A model generated the notes under the pieces. The model saw nothing but the letters and a program-made list of their open reading frames with translations, was not told the DNA's origin and made no database searches. Below, piece after piece: positions 8,509 through 27,246 of a stretch of DNA of 33,955 nt (position 1 is the first letter of the stretch; each line of letters starts with the position of its first letter). A program made the position numbers and the translations under genes. The stretch is from an uncultured Pirellulaceae bacterium (GTDB lineage: Bacteria; Planctomycetota; Planctomycetia; Pirellulales; Pirellulaceae), in contig CALFWL010000139.1 of the NCBI GenBank assembly GCA_937928215.1, positions 1 to 33,955 of the forward strand, read 5' to 3'.

Positions 8509-8853
8509 TCAAAATACGGATTCATACATCTGCTGATTGAAACCAACCACAAGCTGCTCTCCCAGCCTCAATGTCGGCGCACGCAGGTTCCCGGTTGGCC
8601 CCAGCACCAGTTTCAGCAACTGCTGTTCGGTCAGATCGTCATTGTTCAAATCGACCTCCACAACCTTCTTCCCTTTCGCCACACGCAGCGAGCTTAGCTG
8701 CTTCAGTAGCGTGATCGCTTCCTCGCGACCCCAGGTTTCCTTTTTGGCGTTGGTCTCGGATTTGGGCTCAAGCCCAGCGTTGGCAAGAAACTCTTGCGTT
8801 TTGATGCAGGTCTTTCAGCCGGGTCGGTGATAGCTCCAGTCGATGTCTGGCAT
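8509..8853 (-). CDS. ArsC-family/thioredoxin-fold selenoprotein with in-frame UGA (Sec13)
   Basis: The reading frame is open from the ATG at 8853 to the TGA at 8509-8511 except for one TGA at 8815-8817, codon 13. Translated through, the N-terminus is MPDIDWSYHRPG-U-KTC and the C-terminal part has the family block GPTGNLRAPTLRLGEQLVVGFN; total 114 residues, matching small ArsC-like proteins. The TGA lies exactly at the first position of the CxxC redox motif, giving UxxC, and the frame is intact on both sides. A strong Shine-Dalgarno GAGGAG (8862-8867 on the complement) is 8 nt from this ATG; another ATG two codons upstream is too close to it. A SECIS-like hairpin follows the UGA. RefSeq, as I recall, uses the product name 'ArsC family (seleno)protein' for such proteins. 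Substrate unknown; probably a thiol/selenol oxidoreductase rather than a proven arsenate reductase. The alternative is a pseudogene from a TGC/TGT-to-TGA change. Confidence 0.85.
8783..8797 (-). promoter_or_regulatory. Candidate bacterial SECIS element
   Basis: On the coding strand the sequence forms a perfect 6-bp stem, GCAAGA and UCUUGC, around the loop GUU. If the top A-U pair opens, the loop is AGUUU. The loop G is the 24th nucleotide after the UGA of codon 13, inside the spacing and loop rules known for bacterial SECIS elements (a G near the start of a small apical loop roughly 16-37 nt after UGA). This would recruit SelB with Sec-tRNA. No folding program was run. Confidence 0.7.
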
Positions 8854-8861
8854 TTGCATGG

Positions 8862-8867
8862 CTCCTC
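8862..8867 (-). promoter_or_regulatory. Shine-Dalgarno deciding the selenoprotein start
   Basis: GAGGAG on the minus strand ends 8 nt before the ATG at 8853 and only 2 nt before the ATG at 8859. It is one of the few strong ribosome sites in the window and supports translation of the UGA-containing frame. Confidence 0.75.
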
Positions 8868-12754: not shown

Positions 12755-13633
12755 CTACCAAACCTGAATCGCGTCTTGGAGTTCGATCTCCAACCGATCG
12801 GCAACCTGCTGACGCACTTTCTTCATCAGCTCCAGCACTTGCTCGCTGGTCGCACCGGATTCGGCAACGAAGAAATTGGGATCACGATCGGAAACATGAA
12901 CCGGCCCAACCGATTCACCCGCCAGTCCGGCATCGGAAATCAACTTGCTGGCCGATTCGCCACCATGATCGCGAAACATGTACGCCGAGTTCTCGTCCGC
13001 GTCCGGTTGAGCGGCTCGACGCACGATCCACAGCTTCTGCATCCGTTTGGTCAACGAGTTTGCAGGTTCGGTCTCGAACTCGAATCGACCTTCGAGAATC
13101 GCAAGCTCCGTCAAACTGCTCTGGCGATAGGAAAACGAAAGCGAGTCAGAATCTCGCGTCGCAATCTGACCATCACGCGTCAAAACCGTCGCGCTGCGAA
13201 CCCAGCCACCAAAATCGACTCCGTGGTAGCCCGTGTTGTTGTGAAGCGCTCCACCGACCGTGCCCGGAATGCCAACCAGTTGTTCGGGACCGGAAAAACC
13301 CTCCCGCGCCGCCGTGGCAATAAAGTGCGACAGCTTCGCGCCGCCGCCGGCCGTCAACGAGTTTCCATCAACGGAAATTTGGCAAAACTCGGGAGCCGAC
13401 AGATGAATCACGCAACCTTGCACTCCTTCGCTGCGGACCAGCAAATTGGACCCGCCTCCCAGCAAGCGAACGGGAACCTGATCCTCAGCGCAGCGTTTGA
13501 CTAGCGCGATCAATTCATCTCGCGTCGTTGGCTCGGCAAAATATTGGGCCACCCCGCCCAATTTCAGGCTGGTATGAGCAGCCAGCGGTTCATTCTCGCG
13601 AACAATGTGCTCAAATCCGGTCGTCAGTGACAA
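12755..13633 (-). CDS. murB: UDP-N-acetylenolpyruvoylglucosamine reductase
   Basis: FAD enzyme reducing UDP-GlcNAc-enolpyruvate to UDP-MurNAc, the second committed step of peptidoglycan synthesis. 292 residues from a TTG at 13633, chosen because GAGGA lies 7 nt upstream and the family N-terminus (IVRENEPLAAHTSLKLGG) follows; the frame stays open to 13804, but that part runs into the repeat element. FAD-binding signatures are GGGSNLLV, GIPGTVGGALHNNTGYHG and FSYRQSS (substrate Tyr-Arg). The C-terminal ESASKLISDAGLAG and IELQDAIQVW (probable catalytic Glu) are present. Where most MurB proteins have G(S/C)xFKNP, this one reads SAYMFRDH, so the proton-donor Ser/Cys seems to be Tyr. It precedes the ftsQ-like gene by 272 bp. 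Confidence 0.9.
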   Translation of the reverse strand: MSLTTGFEHIVRENEPLAAHTSLKLGGVAQYFAEPTTRDELIALVKRCAEDQVPVRLLGGGSNLLVRSEGVQGCVIHLSAPEFCQISVDGNSLTAGGGAKLSHFIATAAREGFSGPEQLVGIPGTVGGALHNNTGYHGVDFGGWVRSATVLTRDGQIATRDSDSLSFSYRQSSLTELAILEGRFEFETEPANSLTKRMQKLWIVRRAAQPDADENSAYMFRDHGGESASKLISDAGLAGESVGPVHVSDRDPNFFVAESGATSEQVLELMKKVRQQVADRLEIELQDAIQVW

Positions 13634-13774
13634 AACAGTGTCCTCGCATGGGGGCGTTAAGAACCCACATGTTAGTAAATTTTTCCCGGACGGAACAGGT
13701 TTGAACAAAGCGGGAGAGACAAGGTGGGGATGGGCCGGACGAAGAAAGAAGGGCCGGGCGGAGAAAGGGTGGGG

Positions 13775-13935
13775 CGGACGGAGCCTTCCCCTCCCTAGAA
13801 TCATCGATCGGGAGAGTAAGGCTCCGCCCGCACTCGTTGGGATCGGAGAGCTTAAGGTTGAGTATCAGGTCGGACGGAGCCTTCCCCTCCCTAGTTTGTT
13901 AACATCCGTCGGGAGGACGCGGCTCCGCCCAAGCC
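13775..13935 (-). repeat. 96-bp repeat family, locus A (one full unit and two partial units)
   Basis: The hexadecamer CGGACGGAGCCTTCCC occurs at 13775 and again at 13871, exactly 96 bp apart. The bases between match, in reverse complement, the unit repeated at 18631-18918, including the ends GGCTCCG and CGGAGCC, the ATCGATCGGGAG block, and ACTCGTTGGGATCGGAG. A degenerate third unit (CATCCGTCGGGAGGACGCGGCTCCGCCC) follows to about 13935. It lies between the BatA-like gene and murB. Confidence 0.8.
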
Positions 13936-13978
13936 AAATCCAATGACACGCTTGAGCCAGCGATCGGGGCGGGCGGAG

Positions 13979-18361: not shown

Positions 18362-18630
18362 CTCGCCGCCTTGCGTTTCATTTTAGCACGAACGAACAGC
18401 CAGAGTAGCCGTGGCAGCTTTGGGTGAAGAAAGCTCCCTTGGCTCGAATTTTTCACGATGGCCACGTCGTACATTGGAGAACAAGAGGACAATTGTCCGA
18501 ATTGCTTGCCCAGCGAAGATCGAGGATGTTCGATAAGGATCGAGACAGTTTCATTGCCGTTTCCATCCGGCTGAGAAGCTCAAATCGAAAAAGGCTCCGG
18601 TTCAGCCGTTGTAGACGCGTTGTCATCAAG
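18362..18630. other. Gene-free spacer before the tandem repeats
   Basis: This interval upstream of the STAS gene shows no supportable gene. Open frames across it (18424-18990 on +, 18453-18941 on -) owe their length and repetitive peptides to the 96-bp repeats next to it. It should contain the promoter of the STAS-RsbW-DUF58 series. Confidence 0.5.
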
Positions 18631-18918
18631 GAGGGGAAGGCTCCGTCCGACCCGATACCCAAGCTTAAACACTCCAATCCCAATGAGTGCGGGCAGAGCC
18701 TTACGCTCCCGATCGATGTTTCCAGGGAGGGGAAGGCTCCGTCCGACCTGATACCCAAGCTCAAACGCTCCAATCCCAACGAGTGCGGGCGGAGCCTTAC
18801 ACTCCCGATCGATGTTTCCAAGGAGGGGAAGGCTCCGTCCGACCTGATACCCAAGCTTAAACGCTCCAATCCCAATGAGTGCGGGCAGAGCCTTACGCTC
18901 CCGATCGATGTTTCCGGG
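18631..18918 (+). repeat. 96-bp repeat family, locus B (three tandem units)
   Basis: GAGGGGAAGGCTCCGTCCGA starts at 18631, 18727 and 18823, an exact 96-bp period. Each unit ends with GTGCGGGC(A/G)GAGCCTTACRCTCCCGATCG-type sequence, so AAGGCTCCG at the left and CGGAGCCTT at the right make inverted ends. The units differ at only a few positions. A shortened fourth copy follows at about 18919-18942. The family matches locus A at 13775-13935 in opposite orientation. It lies between two genes on the minus strand. Confidence 0.92.
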
Positions 18919-18996
18919 AAGCCCGACCCGATACACTCCAACTGGCTTGGGCAGCACCGCGTCCGAGATCTTACACGCGGAATTCGCTGAACAAAG

Positions 18997-21900
18997 TCAC
19001 TGCTGAGGATTTACGCCCGGATCTTCCGTTTCGATTTCTCGTTCCGAACGTTGGATTTTATTCAGCAATTGTTTGTAGTTCGCCTCGGTTAGTTTCGCCG
19101 CCTTCTTCAAATCATCCGCTTCGGCAAACACTTCGGAAAGCTTCAGAATGGGCTCCATCCACGTTTGCAGCACGCGAAACTGGTTGCGAATAATGTCCAG
19201 AAAGATGTTGGGCACTTTGTTGATGACTTCGATCTGCTGCTTTTCGATTGGACTCGTCGTTGCAGCCTGAGTCCGGCCAACGTTCGCCGCAAGCCCTTCT
19301 CCGAACACGTTCTTCATATCACCAAGCGTTGCGTTCAAGCTGGCAAGCTCCGCAACGGCATGAGACACCTCCTTGATGGTCGTATTCTGGAACGTGCGGT
19401 CGGATTCTTCTTTTGAGTCCGCCAAACGGTTGACTCCGGCGTCGAGCGTCCGTTTGATATCACCCAAACCGGAAGTAAAAGTGCTCATCTGAGCGATGAT
19501 CTGGCCCAGTTGATTGTCTCCATCGACGCTGCCCAACAACAGGTTCCGCTCAAACGTGGACTTGATGCTGTGCCAACGTTCAAGCTCTTCATCGACCAGC
19601 GATCCCATCAGTTCCTTCAATTTCAGCAGGTTCGCTTCTGCTCCACTGGTCAAAGTCTGAGCCTGATTCTGATAGTGTGAATCAATGATCGTTCGCAGTT
19701 CGTCGTCGTTCACAATCGGCGCAATTTGTTCGGCGATCTTGTTCATGTCACGATACGAGCCCTGTAGTTTGAACGCCGGTTCGGTGCGATATTCGTCCGC
19801 CTGAGCCGCCGAGTCGATGTATTCGCGGTTAACATTCAACACAACATCACGTGCGACGATCAGCTTTTTCATTACCGAGACAAGCTCATTGATTTCTTCA
19901 ATCGAGTAGTTTCCCTCCAACGAGACACCGCCTGGATTATCCGACTGAGCCATCTTGATGACGCTATAAACATCATTCTGCGATCGACTGGCGAGTCGGC
20001 TCAGCGTCGAGTTGGACGTCAAGCAGTTTTCCAGATAGCTCAACTCAAACGAATCAGCACTGTCACCAATCACGTCACCAAGGTTGTACGTGTCGGCCCG
20101 AGAAGCAAGCATGTCAGGAATCTGGAACTTCTCGCCACTTTCTGTGTATGGGTTACCGGCCATCACCACGGCAACCTTGCGGCCTCGCAAATCATACGTT
20201 CTCGTGCGTCCGCCAAAGACACCCTCGATCCGCCGAGTCGCATCGCACAACGAAATGAACTTCTGTAGAAACTCGGGGTTGCAATGCTGGATGTCGTCAA
20301 CGTAAATCATCACGTTGTCGCCCATCTCCAACGCGAGATTCAGTTTCTGGATTTCCTCGCTGCTACTGGCGTTGGGCGCCTCGGCAGGATCTAGCGATGT
20401 CACTTGATGGCCAATGGCGGGTCCATTGATCTTCATGAACGTGATGCCAAGTCGGTTTGCAACGTACTCCATCAACGTCGTTTTTCCGTAACCCGGCGGT
20501 GAAATCAGCAGCAACATCCCCATCAGGTCGGTGCGTTTATTTTCACCCACGACGCCAATCTGCTTGGCGAGGTTGGCTCCAACCATCGGCAGGTAGGTGT
20601 CGTTGATCAATTGGTTGCGAACGAACGAAGTCAACACACGCGGCTTGAATTCGTCAAGCCGTAAAGAATCACGACGACGATCAAGCACGTCCTTTTTTGC
20701 ATGGACGTAAGCTTCATACCGTGGCACCGTCGTGTTGCGATAGTGCTCAAGCCGCGTCATGAACTCGTTGAAGTCGAGCGTGTACTGTTGGTCATCCACT
20801 CGCGGGTGATCGCCCAACAAGCCGGCAACGACACAGACGGAATCAATATCGATCACGTCGCCATCGCTTGGCAACGCCCCAACCAAAATCGCGGCGGCCT
20901 CTTCGACGTAACGCCGGTCCGCGTGGTCACGCTCTTGATCGACAAACGCTCGCACCCATTGGCAAGCCACTTCGAATCGATCCACCGGTGCCGTTTCTTG
21001 TCGCGAGGTCATCAACTGGAACTGATCATGAACTCGTTTTAATTCAAGATGACGGGTGAACGCGGAAACAATTTCCGTCGCTCCAGCAGATCGAACGAAC
21101 GGCCCTCTCGACCCGATTTGCTCGAACAGGTACTCCGCGACCGCATGCGGATTCGGACAGCTCTCACATTTGAGCGACACATCAGCAGCCAGCCGATCAA
21201 TGTACTGCTGGCGATCGTTCAGCGGCCCGAACAACTCGGCGGCAGCCCCCAAGCTTTGCAATTTTGCTTCCCATGAGTCGCGATCGTCGTGACTGGCAAA
21301 CGATTGCCAGTAGACGGCAGCCAACGATCGTGTTGCCGGTGAAAATCTCAACAGACCAAGCTGACCATCCAGTCGCAGTAAATTCTCTAAAATCAACGCC
21401 GCATCGTGATCGTGGACTCCCTTGATGTAGCCTTCTGTGTAACGAGCCGCCATGAATTTCTGAACTTCCGACAGCAAATCCTGACCGCTCTTTTGCGAAA
21501 GCTTATTCTCTGCCCCATTTGTGTTTCGCGATTCCAACAGCATCAGACAAGCCAGATACTCGGCGCGATAAACGTCTTCATTCTCGGAAACGAGGTGCTG
21601 GTCCCAAAGCTCGCGTGTCGAATTCAGTGTTTCATCAACGACGCGTTCGAAAAAATTCGTCCCCGAAAGATGAAAATACATCTGGCCGTCTTTGACGACG
21701 TTGGTCAGTTCGAGCGGCTGAGTATTCACGCTGAACTTGTGCGAGCCAAACTGGATAACGTCCTGTCCGTCGACGTACAGTTCGTTCCGATCTTTCAGCT
21801 GTCGAACCGTATCTTCGTGGATCGTCTTCAAGCGACTCTGAACATCGTCGACCTTGACCGATTCATCCAACTCGGCCAGTGAAGTGATGATGTCTCGCAC

Positions 21901-24300
21901 CTTGTCGATCATCAGGTCGGATGCGAAGTAGCTGTTGATCTGATCGATCGACTCAAAACCGGAAACTCGCGAACGAATGCCTCCCAGAATCCGTTCCGCT
22001 GCACTCATCAACGCCGTCGCGCGACGATTTCTTGCTTCGCCCAACTGAAGTTTCTTCGCATCAAACGCGCCATAGATCTCTTCGCGCTTCTCAGCCAACT
22101 GGATGATAAACTCGTCGAACTCTGCGAACTTACCTTCCAGTTCTTCGACTTGGACCATCATGCGAGTCAAATAGTCGTCGCACTTGACGGGCGAATCGCA
22201 CACGTCCAGATAATTCACGACGGCCTGGCTGATCAGTTTCAGCTGGCTATTGAATTCAGCCTTGCCCTCGACCGACATCAACGCTTGGTTTTGTTTTTTC
22301 AGTGCGGCTCGCGTCTGATTCAGGTCCGCGTAGATGGTTGAAATGTTGTCGATGATTCGAGTCCGCTGAGTCGCGTCGTCGATCTTCAAGTTGCTGACAA
22401 TTTCGATCAACATTTCCAATTGCGAAGCGCCTTCGACCAACTCTTCATCCAACGCCTTCGCCTCGACCGCTGTGGCCAACGAGTCAATCTGTTCTCGTTG
22501 GTCATGGACTCGATCCACATACGGTTCCAACGCCGATTCGGTCAGCAAAAAGTCGACGCAACGCTGCGAAAGCTTGTCCGAAGCCTCGGCAACTTGCGAC
22601 TCCAACTGCTCCACCGCGTCCGTGTCGACGTACTTCAACTCCTTAAGCGAGATCACTTGACCGCGAACGGTTCGAAGCGAAGAAAGAGCCACCACAAAGT
22701 CATCGATGTTGTCGTAACGTTTTGAATTCGCGGATCGAAGCGACTCGCGTGTCGCCGCGGCAGCGGTGTCAAACTGTTGCCGGGTGTTCTGGCGGACTCG
22801 CACCACTTTGTCGAACTCATCGATCGCCGCGGTAGCAGCCTCACGAATCGATGTCAGCGGCACAGCTAACTCAGACGCTCGTTCGTCCGTCAACCAGAAA
22901 AACGAATCCAGCATGTCGGTTGAGCGTTTGACGAGGTCGACGTACAGGTTCGCGTACGAATCGTCTTGGTCAATCAGATTCAGAATCTCATGCGATTCCG
23001 CCATCGCTCGGACAACTTCTCGATTGCCGATCTTGTACAGAAATGAATCGGTTTGCTGACCCGAGCTGACATCTTCGCCAACGTAAGGCGTCTGCCAGAT
23101 TTGGATCGCGTGGTGTTTGGCGGGCTCCAGATCGGACTTGTAGTAGATCAAATGCCCGTTTTCAAAAATCGAGAAGCCGTTGCAAACGATGGGCGTCGCG
23201 ACTTCTTGCCCAATCATGTTGTACGACAACAGAACGTGATGCCCCGAGTCGCGATTGTAGAACACGTACAGATAGTCTTCGCCATTAACGGAAGCGATCC
23301 GACGTTCGAACAACAAATCAGTCAGATTGTTATCGAAGGTTTTGTATTGCCCCGTTTGCAGGTAGTACCCGTTGCTGAAAATCAGACCGTGATCCTCAGG
23401 CAACAGCACGCAGGCATGAGCGATTGAATCGATCCGAGTGACGGTTCGTGTTTTCTCGTTGAAGACAAGATAGCGGAAGTCGTCCTCTTTGAAGGGCTTG
23501 ATCTTTAGCAGAATCAGATTGCCCACGATCGAGTAAAAAATATCCGCATCGTCGAGCGTTTGATCGGGCTCGTCGACATGTTCGGCATAGATGCCGCTGC
23601 CGTCGTCGGTGTTGTCCTCGACTTTGATGGTCAGATCGCCGCCAACCGTTTCGACAAATACTCGATCATGGATCGAGATATGTGGATGTTGCCCGGCGCG
23701 ATGCTGCTCACGCGTCGTCGCTACCCACTTGAAATCGTGCTGGTCTGGAAAAACAACTTCGTGATCGCTGCGGTTGTCAATGTATTTTAACGAATCGCCG
23801 TCGATCAGAAACTTGAACGACTTCGTATCGGTCGCCGCCTTGCCGATGCGGAACACCAGGTACAGATGCGGCCCGATCACGTGAAATTTTGCGAATTGAG
23901 TATCCTTGTAGTATTTGTACAAGGAATAAAACTCGTCCTCAAACGCACCGACTTGCAACAAGTCGAGTGGTTTGGCGTGCATCGAACCATCGCTAAACTC
24001 GAACACGCTGAAGACATCCGCCAGCTCGGTCCGAGTCTTCAGCCCCATATGCACGTTGTAGCCAAAGATAAACTGGTCACCGATCGGAACGATATCGCGA
24101 GGAGTGCAATTGTTCTCGGTGGTGATTCGTTGATTGGAGATCAACTCAGTTGCAATCGACCCGAACACGTCGCGCCGCTGTTCGTTCAACTGCCCCAAGC
24201 GAGTTCGAAGATCGTCCGCATGAGAACGCAGGCGATTGAGAATGATCTCGTACGTCCCCCGTTCAAGCGTGGGTTCTGAATTTGTTTCGGGTTCAGACAT
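18997..24300 (-). CDS. Giant coiled-coil AAA ATPase ('DNA repair ATPase' family) of the flotillin locus
   Basis: 1767 residues. Residues 1 to about 430 are beta-rich with repeated F/Y-hydrophobic strands (FIFGYNVHMGL, HLYLVFRIG, GNLILLKIKPF), resembling a propeller-like sensor. Residues about 440-850 are mostly helical coiled coil. Around 1270 lies Walker A, SPPGYGKTTLM; near 1333 Walker B, MIYVDDIQHC (Asp in place of the usual catalytic Glu); near 1380 a sensor-1-like VVMAGNPYTESG; then PDMLASRADTY. This resembles MoxR/dynein-type AAA modules. The C-terminal 250 residues are again coiled coil. It lies 182 bp downstream of the flotillin gene on the same strand. RefSeq labels such proteins 'DNA repair ATPase', but nothing seen here proves a repair role; acting on membrane-microdomain complexes fits the context better. 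Confidence 0.85.
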   Translation of the reverse strand: MSEPETNSEPTLERGTYEIILNRLRSHADDLRTRLGQLNEQRRDVFGSIATELISNQRITTENNCTPRDIVPIGDQFIFGYNVHMGLKTRTELADVFSVFEFSDGSMHAKPLDLLQVGAFEDEFYSLYKYYKDTQFAKFHVIGPHLYLVFRIGKAATDTKSFKFLIDGDSLKYIDNRSDHEVVFPDQHDFKWVATTREQHRAGQHPHISIHDRVFVETVGGDLTIKVEDNTDDGSGIYAEHVDEPDQTLDDADIFYSIVGNLILLKIKPFKEDDFRYLVFNEKTRTVTRIDSIAHACVLLPEDHGLIFSNGYYLQTGQYKTFDNNLTDLLFERRIASVNGEDYLYVFYNRDSGHHVLLSYNMIGQEVATPIVCNGFSIFENGHLIYYKSDLEPAKHHAIQIWQTPYVGEDVSSGQQTDSFLYKIGNREVVRAMAESHEILNLIDQDDSYANLYVDLVKRSTDMLDSFFWLTDERASELAVPLTSIREAATAAIDEFDKVVRVRQNTRQQFDTAAAATRESLRSANSKRYDNIDDFVVALSSLRTVRGQVISLKELKYVDTDAVEQLESQVAEASDKLSQRCVDFLLTESALEPYVDRVHDQREQIDSLATAVEAKALDEELVEGASQLEMLIEIVSNLKIDDATQRTRIIDNISTIYADLNQTRAALKKQNQALMSVEGKAEFNSQLKLISQAVVNYLDVCDSPVKCDDYLTRMMVQVEELEGKFAEFDEFIIQLAEKREEIYGAFDAKKLQLGEARNRRATALMSAAERILGGIRSRVSGFESIDQINSYFASDLMIDKVRDIITSLAELDESVKVDDVQSRLKTIHEDTVRQLKDRNELYVDGQDVIQFGSHKFSVNTQPLELTNVVKDGQMYFHLSGTNFFERVVDETLNSTRELWDQHLVSENEDVYRAEYLACLMLLESRNTNGAENKLSQKSGQDLLSEVQKFMAARYTEGYIKGVHDHDAALILENLLRLDGQLGLLRFSPATRSLAAVYWQSFASHDDRDSWEAKLQSLGAAAELFGPLNDRQQYIDRLAADVSLKCESCPNPHAVAEYLFEQIGSRGPFVRSAGATEIVSAFTRHLELKRVHDQFQLMTSRQETAPVDRFEVACQWVRAFVDQERDHADRRYVEEAAAILVGALPSDGDVIDIDSVCVVAGLLGDHPRVDDQQYTLDFNEFMTRLEHYRNTTVPRYEAYVHAKKDVLDRRRDSLRLDEFKPRVLTSFVRNQLINDTYLPMVGANLAKQIGVVGENKRTDLMGMLLLISPPGYGKTTLMEYVANRLGITFMKINGPAIGHQVTSLDPAEAPNASSSEEIQKLNLALEMGDNVMIYVDDIQHCNPEFLQKFISLCDATRRIEGVFGGRTRTYDLRGRKVAVVMAGNPYTESGEKFQIPDMLASRADTYNLGDVIGDSADSFELSYLENCLTSNSTLSRLASRSQNDVYSVIKMAQSDNPGGVSLEGNYSIEEINELVSVMKKLIVARDVVLNVNREYIDSAAQADEYRTEPAFKLQGSYRDMNKIAEQIAPIVNDDELRTIIDSHYQNQAQTLTSGAEANLLKLKELMGSLVDEELERWHSIKSTFERNLLLGSVDGDNQLGQIIAQMSTFTSGLGDIKRTLDAGVNRLADSKEESDRTFQNTTIKEVSHAVAELASLNATLGDMKNVFGEGLAANVGRTQAATTSPIEKQQIEVINKVPNIFLDIIRNQFRVLQTWMEPILKLSEVFAEADDLKKAAKLTEANYKQLLNKIQRSEREIETEDPGVNPQQ

Positions 24301-24482
24301 GAATCGAGTTTGCCGCGTAATTAAGATGAAAACCGGCGATCAGTTTTTCGTTTTTGGGAAAACAGTGTGCAGAAAAGCGTGTTCAGTGTGCGGTGCATCG
24401 CGAACCAGCAAGGTCTGTTGAACACGGCACCTGCCTTCCTAACACACTGCCATCCGATGCCTGAACACTTGCAGGAAACCGG

Positions 24483-26507
24483 CTATGATTTCGCGATCGC
24501 GCTCACGACCGTTCCGGCATTCTCAGTTGCCATCCCTGATCGCGTCGCCATCGACATCATCGATTGCAATTTTTTCAACTGACTTTCGTCGCTGGTCAAA
24601 CCCATCATCTGGCCGATCAAGGCAGCCACCGAAAGGTTCTTCAAGTCTTCGGACGACACACCAAACGTGTCGATCAAGTTTCCAATCTCGTCACGAAACT
24701 GCTGTGGATCGCCTGTAAAAAACGTGTCCTTCACATCGGAAAGCACGGCGCTCCCTTCGACCAGACGGTCGACCTGCTTGCCGGCCGTGATACTGCCAAC
24801 AATATTCTCGAAGAACTTGTTGTCGCCGCCCACAATCTCAACCTTGGCTGTCTTGAGTGACTCAGCCACCATCTCGGCTTGAGATTTGGCAATGTTTTGC
24901 TGAGCGGCAATCGCATGCAGTTCAATTTCTTTCTGCTTGTTCAGTCGCAGCTTGAACTCTTCATGTTCGCGCCCGACTCCGTCGAACAGTTTCATCGCTT
25001 CGGCTTTCTGAGTGATCCCTTTCGCGTCCGCATCGAATTTCAATTCAAGCACTTTCGCTTCTGCGGCACCTTCTTTTTCCAACGCCTCTGCTTTGGAAAG
25101 CGTCACTTGAGCTTCCGCCAATCCGAGTGCGGCGGCTTCAGCCTGAGTCGCCTCGGCCAGCATCTTTTTGGCTGACGTCTGCTTCTCGGCGGCTTCCAAT
25201 TCCGCGTTGGCCGTTACAACAATGCGTTCTGCATCAAGCAACGCAGCGCCTTTTTCGGCCTCGGCCTCTTTCACCTCTTTCACCAACGCACGCTGAGCCT
25301 GTTCTTCGGCTTCGCGAATGGCGACTTGCTTCTTACGGTCGGCGGCTGCAAACTCTCGGGTGTCCTTGATCTTCTCCTCTTCTTCAACGACGGTTCGTTC
25401 GACGGCGACCCGTTCCTTGATGACATCCTGAATATTCTTCTTTTCGACTTCGACCGCTTTTTCTTTGTCGATCTGAGCCAACGTCACGACGCGTTCACGC
25501 TCGGTGGCTTCAATGCCTTGATCCTTGGCGACACGCTCGGTTTCGACCGCGTCGGTTCGCTCTTTGCTTTTCGCTGCAACGATAATCGATCGCAGTTTGT
25601 TCTCTTCGGCTACTTGCAGCTCTTCCTCGGTTTGAATCCGAGCAGACTCGTGTCGCTTTCGCTCCTGCTCCTGAACAACCTTTGCTTCCGCTTCTTCTCG
25701 AGCTGTAATTTCCGCGATTTCACGAAGCTGTTTTTGCTCGGCCTCGGCCTGTTGACGCTCCAACGCGAGGATGGCTTCGCGAGCCTCCACGTCCTGCTTC
25801 TTGATCGTCTTCTCTTTTTCACGAGTGATATAATTCGCTCGCGTGACTTCTTCCGCGGTCAAGTCGGTGATCTTTTTGATACCTTCGGCGTCGAGAACGT
25901 TGTTCGGATTCAGTTTCTCAAGATCCGTCTGCTCCAGGTAGTCGATCGCCGCGTCATCCAGCACGTAACCGTTCAAATCCGTGCCGATAATGCGCAGAAT
26001 CTGCTCACGGAATTGTTCGCGAGAGTTGTACAGCTCAACAAAGTCGAACTGCTTACCGACCGTTTTCAACGCTTCTGAGAATTTCGGTTCAAACACGGTC
26101 CGCAAAGCGATCTCGTCGGAAGCACGAGCACATCCGAGAAACTGAGCGACGCGTTTGACATCGTCGACTTCTTTGTTGACTCGCACGAAGAACGCAACTT
26201 TGATATCAGCGCGAATGTTGTCCTTACAGATCAAGCCATCTTCGCCGCTGCGATCGATTTCGATTCGCTTGACCGAGATATCCATCATCTCCACGATGTG
26301 CAGGATGGGGATAATGATGGCCGAATCGAAACTGACCTTCGTGCCACCGTGACCGTTCTTGATCAGAGCCGACCCTTGAGGCACTTTGCGCAAGCACTTG
26401 ATGACCAACGCGAGGATGCCGGCGACAATAATCGCGCCGATCACAAGAATTGTGGCAATAAACCAGTAACCGAATCCGTTAGCTGCCAATAATGTGAAGC
26501 TATTCAT
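24483..26507 (-). CDS. Flotillin-like SPFH protein (YqiK family)
   Basis: Membrane-anchored scaffold of bacterial lipid microdomains, 674 residues from the ATG at 26507 (a GTG at 26516 is an alternative). One N-terminal membrane helix (about 10-35, GFGYWFIATILVIGAIIVAGILALVI) precedes the SPFH/Band-7 domain, with ALIKNGHGGTKVSFDSAIIIPILH and ADIKVAFFVRVNKEVDDVKRVAQFLG. From about 220 to 560 it is a long Glu/Ala/Lys-rich coiled coil, the usual flotillin domain. The C-terminus (about 570-674) is a helical tail. Its start overlaps the end of the YqiJ-like gene by 8 nt, implying translational coupling. YqiJ and YqiK are paired in enterobacteria in the same order. Confidence 0.94.
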   Translation of the reverse strand: MNSFTLLAANGFGYWFIATILVIGAIIVAGILALVIKCLRKVPQGSALIKNGHGGTKVSFDSAIIIPILHIVEMMDISVKRIEIDRSGEDGLICKDNIRADIKVAFFVRVNKEVDDVKRVAQFLGCARASDEIALRTVFEPKFSEALKTVGKQFDFVELYNSREQFREQILRIIGTDLNGYVLDDAAIDYLEQTDLEKLNPNNVLDAEGIKKITDLTAEEVTRANYITREKEKTIKKQDVEAREAILALERQQAEAEQKQLREIAEITAREEAEAKVVQEQERKRHESARIQTEEELQVAEENKLRSIIVAAKSKERTDAVETERVAKDQGIEATERERVVTLAQIDKEKAVEVEKKNIQDVIKERVAVERTVVEEEEKIKDTREFAAADRKKQVAIREAEEQAQRALVKEVKEAEAEKGAALLDAERIVVTANAELEAAEKQTSAKKMLAEATQAEAAALGLAEAQVTLSKAEALEKEGAAEAKVLELKFDADAKGITQKAEAMKLFDGVGREHEEFKLRLNKQKEIELHAIAAQQNIAKSQAEMVAESLKTAKVEIVGGDNKFFENIVGSITAGKQVDRLVEGSAVLSDVKDTFFTGDPQQFRDEIGNLIDTFGVSSEDLKNLSVAALIGQMMGLTSDESQLKKLQSMMSMATRSGMATENAGTVVSAIAKS

Positions 26508-27246
26508 TGAGTCCACTCTCTAACCTGGTGTGTTCAACTAAAAATGTGCCGTCGTCTCTGTTGTATGACATCACTCTTGCGAGGTCCGACTTCGCCAATG
26601 TCTGGCCCGGTCGAGTTCTCACGTTCAATACAATTTCGGGCTCGTCGCCGCGTTTAATTTCAATTTGACCAAAGGTCTCCGTTACTTCGCTGGTGGTAAC
26701 GCGTCCGGTCAGTCCCAGCAGTTCGTCGCGCGTCTTGTTTTCTGGTGGTGGTTTACGAAATAAAATTGCCACCGGCATCATCGAGTACCGCAACATCACC
26801 AAACTGACGAATACATTCGGCAAGAACCACGCCGCCGCGATCAGGAAACTCTGATTTGGATTGGTGTAATGATTGGTCACAATCGTCACCATCCATAGAT
26901 AAAAAACCAAGAACGAGGCAACTATCACGATTGGGATTTCGGCCAAGTAAAAATATTCGAACACCGACCGCATGAAGCTATCGCCGCCGGTCGTGCTGCT
27001 TCCGCTGCCCACCTGCGTTTGAGGCGCGCCGTCAATGCTACCGCCATCCAAATCAACATCCGCGTCGATGCCCGGATCGATATCCAGTCCGACATCCACG
27101 TCCGCATCCAGATCCAGACCAATATCGATCGCGTCCATCCCGACAACGCCCGCGATGACCATCAACCAATACAGCAACATGCCTACCAGCAGCACCGTTA
27201 CTGGAAAGTTGACGTAATTGACGGTCTCTTGAAGGAATTCGATCAT
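26500..27246 (-). CDS. YqiJ-like (OB-fold, NfeD-related) membrane protein
   Basis: 248 residues. A first hydrophobic helix (about 15-37, VTVLLVGMLLYWLMVIAGVVG) is followed by a very Asp-rich stretch (about 38-70, alternating Asp with hydrophobic residues), then two helices (VVASFLVFYLWMVTIV and SFLIAAAWFLPNVFVSLVMLRY). A C-terminal beta domain from about 160 (ELLGLTGRVTTSEVTETFGQIEIKRGDEPEIVLNVRT) has the OB-like pattern of YqiJ/NfeD proteins. These are partners of SPFH/flotillin proteins. It is the first gene of the three-gene unit and its TAG stop lies inside the flotillin start region. The Asp-rich segment is unusual and could bind Ca2+. Confidence 0.88.
   Translation of the reverse strand: MIEFLQETVNYVNFPVTVLLVGMLLYWLMVIAGVVGMDAIDIGLDLDADVDVGLDIDPGIDADVDLDGGSIDGAPQTQVGSGSSTTGGDSFMRSVFEYFYLAEIPIVIVASFLVFYLWMVTIVTNHYTNPNQSFLIAAAWFLPNVFVSLVMLRYSMMPVAILFRKPPPENKTRDELLGLTGRVTTSEVTETFGQIEIKRGDEPEIVLNVRTRPGQTLAKSDLARVMSYNRDDGTFLVEHTRLESGLNE

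Follow-up and report, generated by a model that had tools for sequence, protein, structure and literature searches.

A predicted selenocysteine-containing protein of the ArsC-related NF041106 family in an uncultured Pirellulaceae bacterium

ArsC-like proteins already figure in catalogs of bacterial selenoproteins. A table in a 2026 review includes an 'Arsenate reductase-like protein, NF041106, UxxC' (where U is selenocysteine, Sec) and credits it to a 2008 ocean survey (PMC13188914). The survey's own table has an 'Arsenate reductase 2, UxxC', for which the first column of counts reads 42 (PMC2398784). The same protein type is listed elsewhere (PMC9312934), and the tables of another study place ArsC-like selenoproteins in deltaproteobacteria (PMC1794560). 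Sec genes and selenoproteins have also been reported in two planctomycetes, in a paper whose consulted text has 'ArsC' in the reference list only (PMC4807772). The words 'ArsC', 'planctomycet' and 'arsenate reductase' were all absent from two other articles when searched (PMC5029168, PMC12013277), and no function for the NF041106 family was found in the consulted portions of the selenoprotein literature (PMC13188914, PMC2398784, PMC9312934, PMC1794560, PMC4807772) or in literature listings. Here we describe a gene of this type in an uncultured Pirellulaceae bacterium (contig CALFWL010000139.1). It occupies positions 8509..8853 on the minus strand of what we call the window, the whole 33,955-nt stretch of DNA that was analyzed. 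Judging from its sequence, the product of the gene is almost certainly a selenoprotein of the NF041106 family, 114 residues long and with a thioredoxin fold, for which the UGA at codon 13 is read as Sec. Because a curated NCBIfam model and a printed UxxC entry exist, the kind was known already: the family is catalogued and the window gene is a well-supported member that adds no more than one sequence from one more planctomycete.

Translated from 8853 to 8509, the frame starts MPDIDWSYHRPG*KTCIKTQEFLANAG and ends MYESVF*; in full it reads MPDIDWSYHRPG*KTCIKTQEFLANAGLEPKSETNAKKETWGREEAITLLKQLSSLRVAKGKKVVEVDLNNDDLTEQQLLKLVLGPTGNLRAPTLRLGEQLVVGFNQQMYESVF* (asterisks, stop codons). The sole internal interruption of its 114 codons, which precede a terminal TGA stop, is the TGA of codon 13 (8815..8817, minus strand, read 8817-8815) in the motif RPG-U-KTC. 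This codon opens the UxxC motif, and codon 16 (TGC; 8806..8808, minus strand) supplies the partner Cys, which never varies among 46 aligned proteins selected from the family loci. A Shine-Dalgarno-like GAGGAG, read directly from the sequence (8862..8867, minus strand), lies 8 nt before the ATG; an alternative ATG two codons upstream is only 2 nt from it. On the plus strand, the same interval holds overlapping mechanical open reading frames (ORFs) only. An earlier note on this DNA had proposed a 114-codon frame with a single in-frame TGA at 8815-8817, at the first position of a CxxC motif and behind a Shine-Dalgarno sequence; the sequence bears out each of these points and places the gene on the minus strand. 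Downstream of the TGA, the nonsynonymous divergence (dN) between the window gene and six chosen relatives was 0.15-0.38 and the synonymous divergence (dS) was inestimable in 6 of 6 comparisons (returned as -1, which we read as saturated). Thus, the part of the frame that follows the TGA is kept as protein. The terminal stop (8511-8509) is TGA too. Within a single gene, a TGA followed by a conserved hairpin thus coexists with another that serves as the stop. TGA is the terminal stop in 4 of 28 genes of the 60-genome set described below. In the window gene and its nearest relative (locus L035 of genome G020, which like G003 belongs to the same genus as the window genome), this stop takes the place of an additional Gly codon found in most members.

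The read-through protein matched the NCBIfam model NF041106, "ArsC family (seleno)protein", over its full length (132.2 bits, 1e-38; residues 4-110 on model positions 1-107 of 107), well above the curated cut-off of 85 bits, and it also passed Pfam ArsC (30.6 bits, cut-off 24). Consistent with the family definition, which calls for U or C at the first UxxC position, the protein pairs the TGA of codon 13 with the Cys of codon 16. Residues invariant in the 46-member alignment, with U counted as C, are Y8, R10, U/C13, C16, G61, G85, P86, L90, R91, P93 and G104. No difference of kind was seen between the window protein and NF041106 (ArsC_rel_Se_1), with which it shares the full-model match, the UxxC motif and the occurrence of either TGA or Cys at that position in relatives. 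This match, the low dN and the recurrence of the TGA sustain the earlier claim that the frame is preserved on both sides of the TGA and conserved as a family. By contrast, the protein scored below the cut-offs of the TIGR00014 arsenate reductases (17.8 vs. 106.05 bits) and of the Spx/MgsR family TIGR01617 (37.6 vs. 75.05 bits), and both strict arsenate reductase and Spx membership were rejected on these grounds.

The TGA recurs at the same codon in separately assembled genomes. Among the 60 nearest genomes, the window genome included, 29 have the family; 28 of these carry one in-frame TGA at that codon (one, in G022, is truncated at the end of a contig and falls below the cut-off) and one, G050, has TGC. 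A scan of 244 genomes of the phylum found the family in 63, with 64 matches, 55 of them with one in-frame TGA and nine without a stop. In one genome (G093, contigs C5 and C12), the family is present twice, once with the TGA and once without a stop, which makes a natural Sec/Cys pair. In public sequence data, which overlap with the 60-genome set, the codon is TGA in 79 and TGT in one of the best 80 of at least 581 loci (78 were located by script and two were read separately). Record titles include Mariniblastus, Pirellulaceae, Acidobacteria and Methylomirabilota, and not all titles of metagenome bins seem trustworthy (Klebsiella pneumoniae is one of them). The TGA form also occurs in a complete genome, that of Planctomycetes bacterium K23_9 (CP036526). 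The closest public locus among those listed, CALFUT010000023.1 from an uncultured Pirellulaceae, is 75% identical. Relatives thus have both Cys and TGA at this position, as the earlier note had predicted. A tree of the Sec and Cys forms (57 rows, 111 columns, many unresolved forks) has four changes between them, two of which are forced by starred branches, and fixes no direction. In one relative (L180, PBCP01000073.1) a second in-frame stop, TAG, lies five codons after the Sec TGA and just before an intact hairpin; either this copy has decayed or the sequence is in error.

The window genome (4.15 Mb in 247 contigs, 92% complete) encodes the machinery needed to insert Sec. We identified one Sec tRNA (tRNA-Sec) above the cut-off (71.1 bits; tRNA-SeC(tca) according to ARAGORN), selA (570.8 bits), and selD (261.6 bits) within a 737-residue frame. 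The N-terminal part of this frame is presumably an NADH dehydrogenase. The selB gene (L081, contig C177 of the genome, 3-878) runs into the contig end, and what is left of it encodes the first 292 residues, which are 78% identical to the SelB of a relative. Hence the SelA, SelB, SelC and SelD that the earlier note had regarded as necessary are there, with selB in part, and the absence of selB and tRNA-Sec that it had named as fatal to its proposal was not observed. Counts of co-occurrence, made with stricter filters (E up to 1e-9), point in the same direction. In the 60-genome set, the one Cys genome has tRNA-Sec, as do 26 of the 28 genomes with the TGA form; the completeness of the remaining two is 80% and 71%. 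We also picked 60 genomes from the 244- and 60-genome sets, leaving out 24 of the 54 TGA-only genomes and taking as gene-less genomes the 20 listed from the 244-genome scan (161 more were left out). Here, tRNA-Sec was found in 29 of 30 TGA-only genomes, in the single genome with both forms, in two of nine Cys-only genomes and in one of 20 genomes without the gene. tRNA-Sec tracks the TGA form.

Behind the TGA and inside the coding frame lies a hairpin, GCAAGA-GUU-UCUUGC (8783..8797, minus strand), that resembles a bacterial Sec insertion sequence (SECIS); it starts 17 nt downstream of the TGA, where the sequence reads GCAAGAGUUUCUUGC. Codon use was tabulated for 25 Sec genes with mutual identities below 90% (two of 27 full-length genes were dropped as more than 90% identical, and the cut gene L037 and the Cys form were left out), in which the codons over the hairpin are nearly fixed: ACG 22/22, CAA 23/25, GAG 24/24, TTT 22/25 and CTT 25/25. 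For most other conserved residues in the same table, synonymous codon use is near expectation. The stem is 92.8% paired in 40 aligned sequences (37 distinct) and changes on both sides in other families, its outer pair being GC in 29, CG in six, UA in one and UG in one. No hairpin of this kind stands at the corresponding place in the Cys gene of G050. In its geometry, the hairpin agrees with a published bacterial SECIS model, which as given in the review text calls for a stem of 4-16 bp, a loop of 3-9 nt with G in the first two loop positions, and 16-37 nt from UGA to loop (PMC13188914): it has 6 bp, the loop GUU and 23 nt to the loop or, alternatively, 5 bp, the loop AGUUU and 22 nt.

These features are consistent with established routes of Sec insertion. 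SelB carrying Sec-tRNA would bind the hairpin so that the UGA of codon 13 is decoded as Sec, and the terminal TGA, which has no such hairpin, would still end translation. Were selenium absent, translation would be expected to stop after 12 residues. In the folded protein, Sec13 and Cys16 would form a UxxC selenenyl-sulfide pair, located immediately ahead of and within the first long helix, and would occupy the place of the CxxC of Spx or glutaredoxin. Catalysis would begin with an attack of the Sec selenolate on a disulfide or oxidized thiol, the intermediate then being resolved by Cys16.

Several observations weigh against the reading of the gene as a Sec-decoding, hairpin-directed selenoprotein. 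The remainder of selB was not found by the same search of the window genome, so SelB is incomplete in the assembly. Moreover, G029, a 99% complete genome that has tRNA-Sec and a TGA-form gene with the hairpin (L036, 1489-1839), showed no clear selA or selB; PF03841 yielded one partial match there (42.6 bits, profile positions 108-231 of 367) that is not a clear SelA. Either the assembly has a gap at these genes, or the machinery was lost and the TGA-form gene persisted. tRNA-Sec also occurs in 13 of the 31 genomes of the 60-genome set without the gene; the machinery therefore does not serve genes of the window type alone. Codon bias extends to codons 8 (GGC 20/25) and 10 (AAG 18/20) in the numbering of the codon table, which are beside the TGA and outside the hairpin. 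Nor is the covariation clear-cut. The alignment includes 40 of 49 Sec sequences, and the nine left out (L096, L103, L104, L105, L108, L109, L110, L112 and L113) were omitted because they have no such hairpin at this place, so the covariation count does not cover them and is biased towards structure. A control in which the 3' partners were slid by -2 gave covariation of 0.242 vs. 0.248 and 15 vs. 12 cells changed on both sides, although only 64.9% of the cells pair at that offset, and RNAalifold kept four pairs of the hairpin alignment (A1), one of them with changes on both sides. Folding energy is uninformative as evidence for a SECIS: the -6.1 kcal/mol obtained over 43 nt was equaled or bettered by 74 of 200 shuffles and falls short of the published model as the review text gives it, at most -7.5 kcal/mol (PMC13188914). 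Other energies were -5 for the bare hairpin and -9.1 for the 48 nt after the TGA, the latter with a larger outer stem. The nine omitted sequences, all Sec genes of the phylum without a hairpin of the GCAAGA/UCUUGC type, are themselves a point on this side. Their transcripts seem to fold into a different, GC-rich stem, which may be a second type of SECIS in the family.

Two other explanations would dispense with Sec altogether. The window contig comes from a fragmented assembly of 247 contigs, a point in favor of the TGA being a sequencing or assembly error in a Cys-form gene, or the premature stop of a decaying pseudogene. However, the same TGA in 28 of 29 nearby matches and in 79 of the best 80 public loci (overlapping sets), the low dN with inestimable dS downstream of it and the nearly frozen codons of the hairpin led us to reject error and pseudogene alike, and we give them next to no credence. 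It is also highly improbable that the UGA is read as something else, through recoding of the whole genetic code or SECIS-independent read-through. Nothing specific speaks for such a reading beyond the fact that a frame open under the chosen code is compatible with recoding. Against it stand the Sec-type tRNA with anticodon tca, selA, selD and part of selB, and the homologs with Cys codons in place of the TGA, seven of whose nine Cys-only genomes lack tRNA-Sec in the picked set. TGA is also the stop of the gene itself and of 12 among 20 long ORFs picked from the window, which is weak evidence because ORFs called with table 11 end there by construction.

What the selenoprotein does is a separate question, for which we favor a Spx/glutaredoxin-like thiol oxidoreductase rather than a true arsenate reductase. 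The earlier label 'ArsC-like' stands as regards the family (Pfam ArsC and NF041106) and fails in the sense of arsenate reductase, since profile and fold are nearer to Spx and related proteins. The window protein shares the ArsC superfamily fold with the glutaredoxin-dependent arsenate reductases, yet their model TIGR00014 is missed by a wide margin and most of the best profile matches of the window protein are Spx. It shares that fold as well with the selenoprotein entered as 'Arsenate reductase (ArsC) 1, UxxS' in the survey table and differs from it in having UxxC (PMC2398784). In at least 90% of the 46 members, Ala precedes the loop Pro (R-A-P), unlike the R-R-P of the aligned Spx chains. 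An Arg before the loop Pro serves arsenate in Escherichia coli ArsC. We also compared ORFs in the flanks of 58 loci (up to 1.5 kb on each side, less at contig ends), clustered by blastp, for gene neighbors that might hint at function. Among the 25 largest clusters, the largest was the gene itself, the others with more than 8 loci (27, 16 and 9) were antisense shadows of it, and the true neighbors were common to at most 8 loci of one subclade. With no neighbor of any kind shared beyond subclades, the context gives no function and lends nothing to an arsenate reductase. A Sec arsenate reductase in the strict sense is thus improbable. Spx itself (e.g., PDB 3ihq, 3gfk and 1z3e) resembles the window protein in the CxxC at the matching place, the ArsC/Spx fold and a similar length, as a Sec version of a Spx-type regulator that binds RNA polymerase would; the window protein differs in having Sec for the first Cys, the R-A-P loop and scores below the Spx family cut-offs. 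We consider such a regulator unlikely, and hold in the same low regard the related idea of a stand-alone, Spx-like redox switch that would sense peroxide or thiol stress through its selenenyl-sulfide and control a partner, possibly RNA polymerase, without being an enzyme. YffB and arsC-related proteins (PDB 1rw1 and 2kok) are distant from the window protein (E of 7.1e-5 and 4e-4, respectively).

In the window, the gene is flanked by a divergent M48 peptidase and followed, on the same strand, by a 974-aa ORF that we take to be 2-oxoglutarate dehydrogenase E1. Elsewhere, positions 18630-18919 hold three tandem copies of a 96-bp unit (93% matches) that are open in several frames, and a mechanical ORF at 13605-13946 encodes a peptide similar to the product of the repeat. 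The minus strand at 18997-27246 encodes a 1767-aa DUF3686/AAA protein, preceded by a 677-aa frame that looks like a flotillin and a 248-aa frame that looks like a membrane protein, neither of which had a Pfam match at E 0.001.

Although the case itself changes no picture, it is clean and checkable. Calling with table 11 alone would miss or shorten such a gene, whose presence also shows that this planctomycete genus uses selenium. If the protein were a Spx-like Sec switch, such switches would span about a quarter of the sampled genomes of the phylum (63 of 244), together with records whose titles name, among others, Acidobacteria and Methylomirabilota. Members are common in the phylum and no reported function was found for the family, which makes its substrate a testable question.
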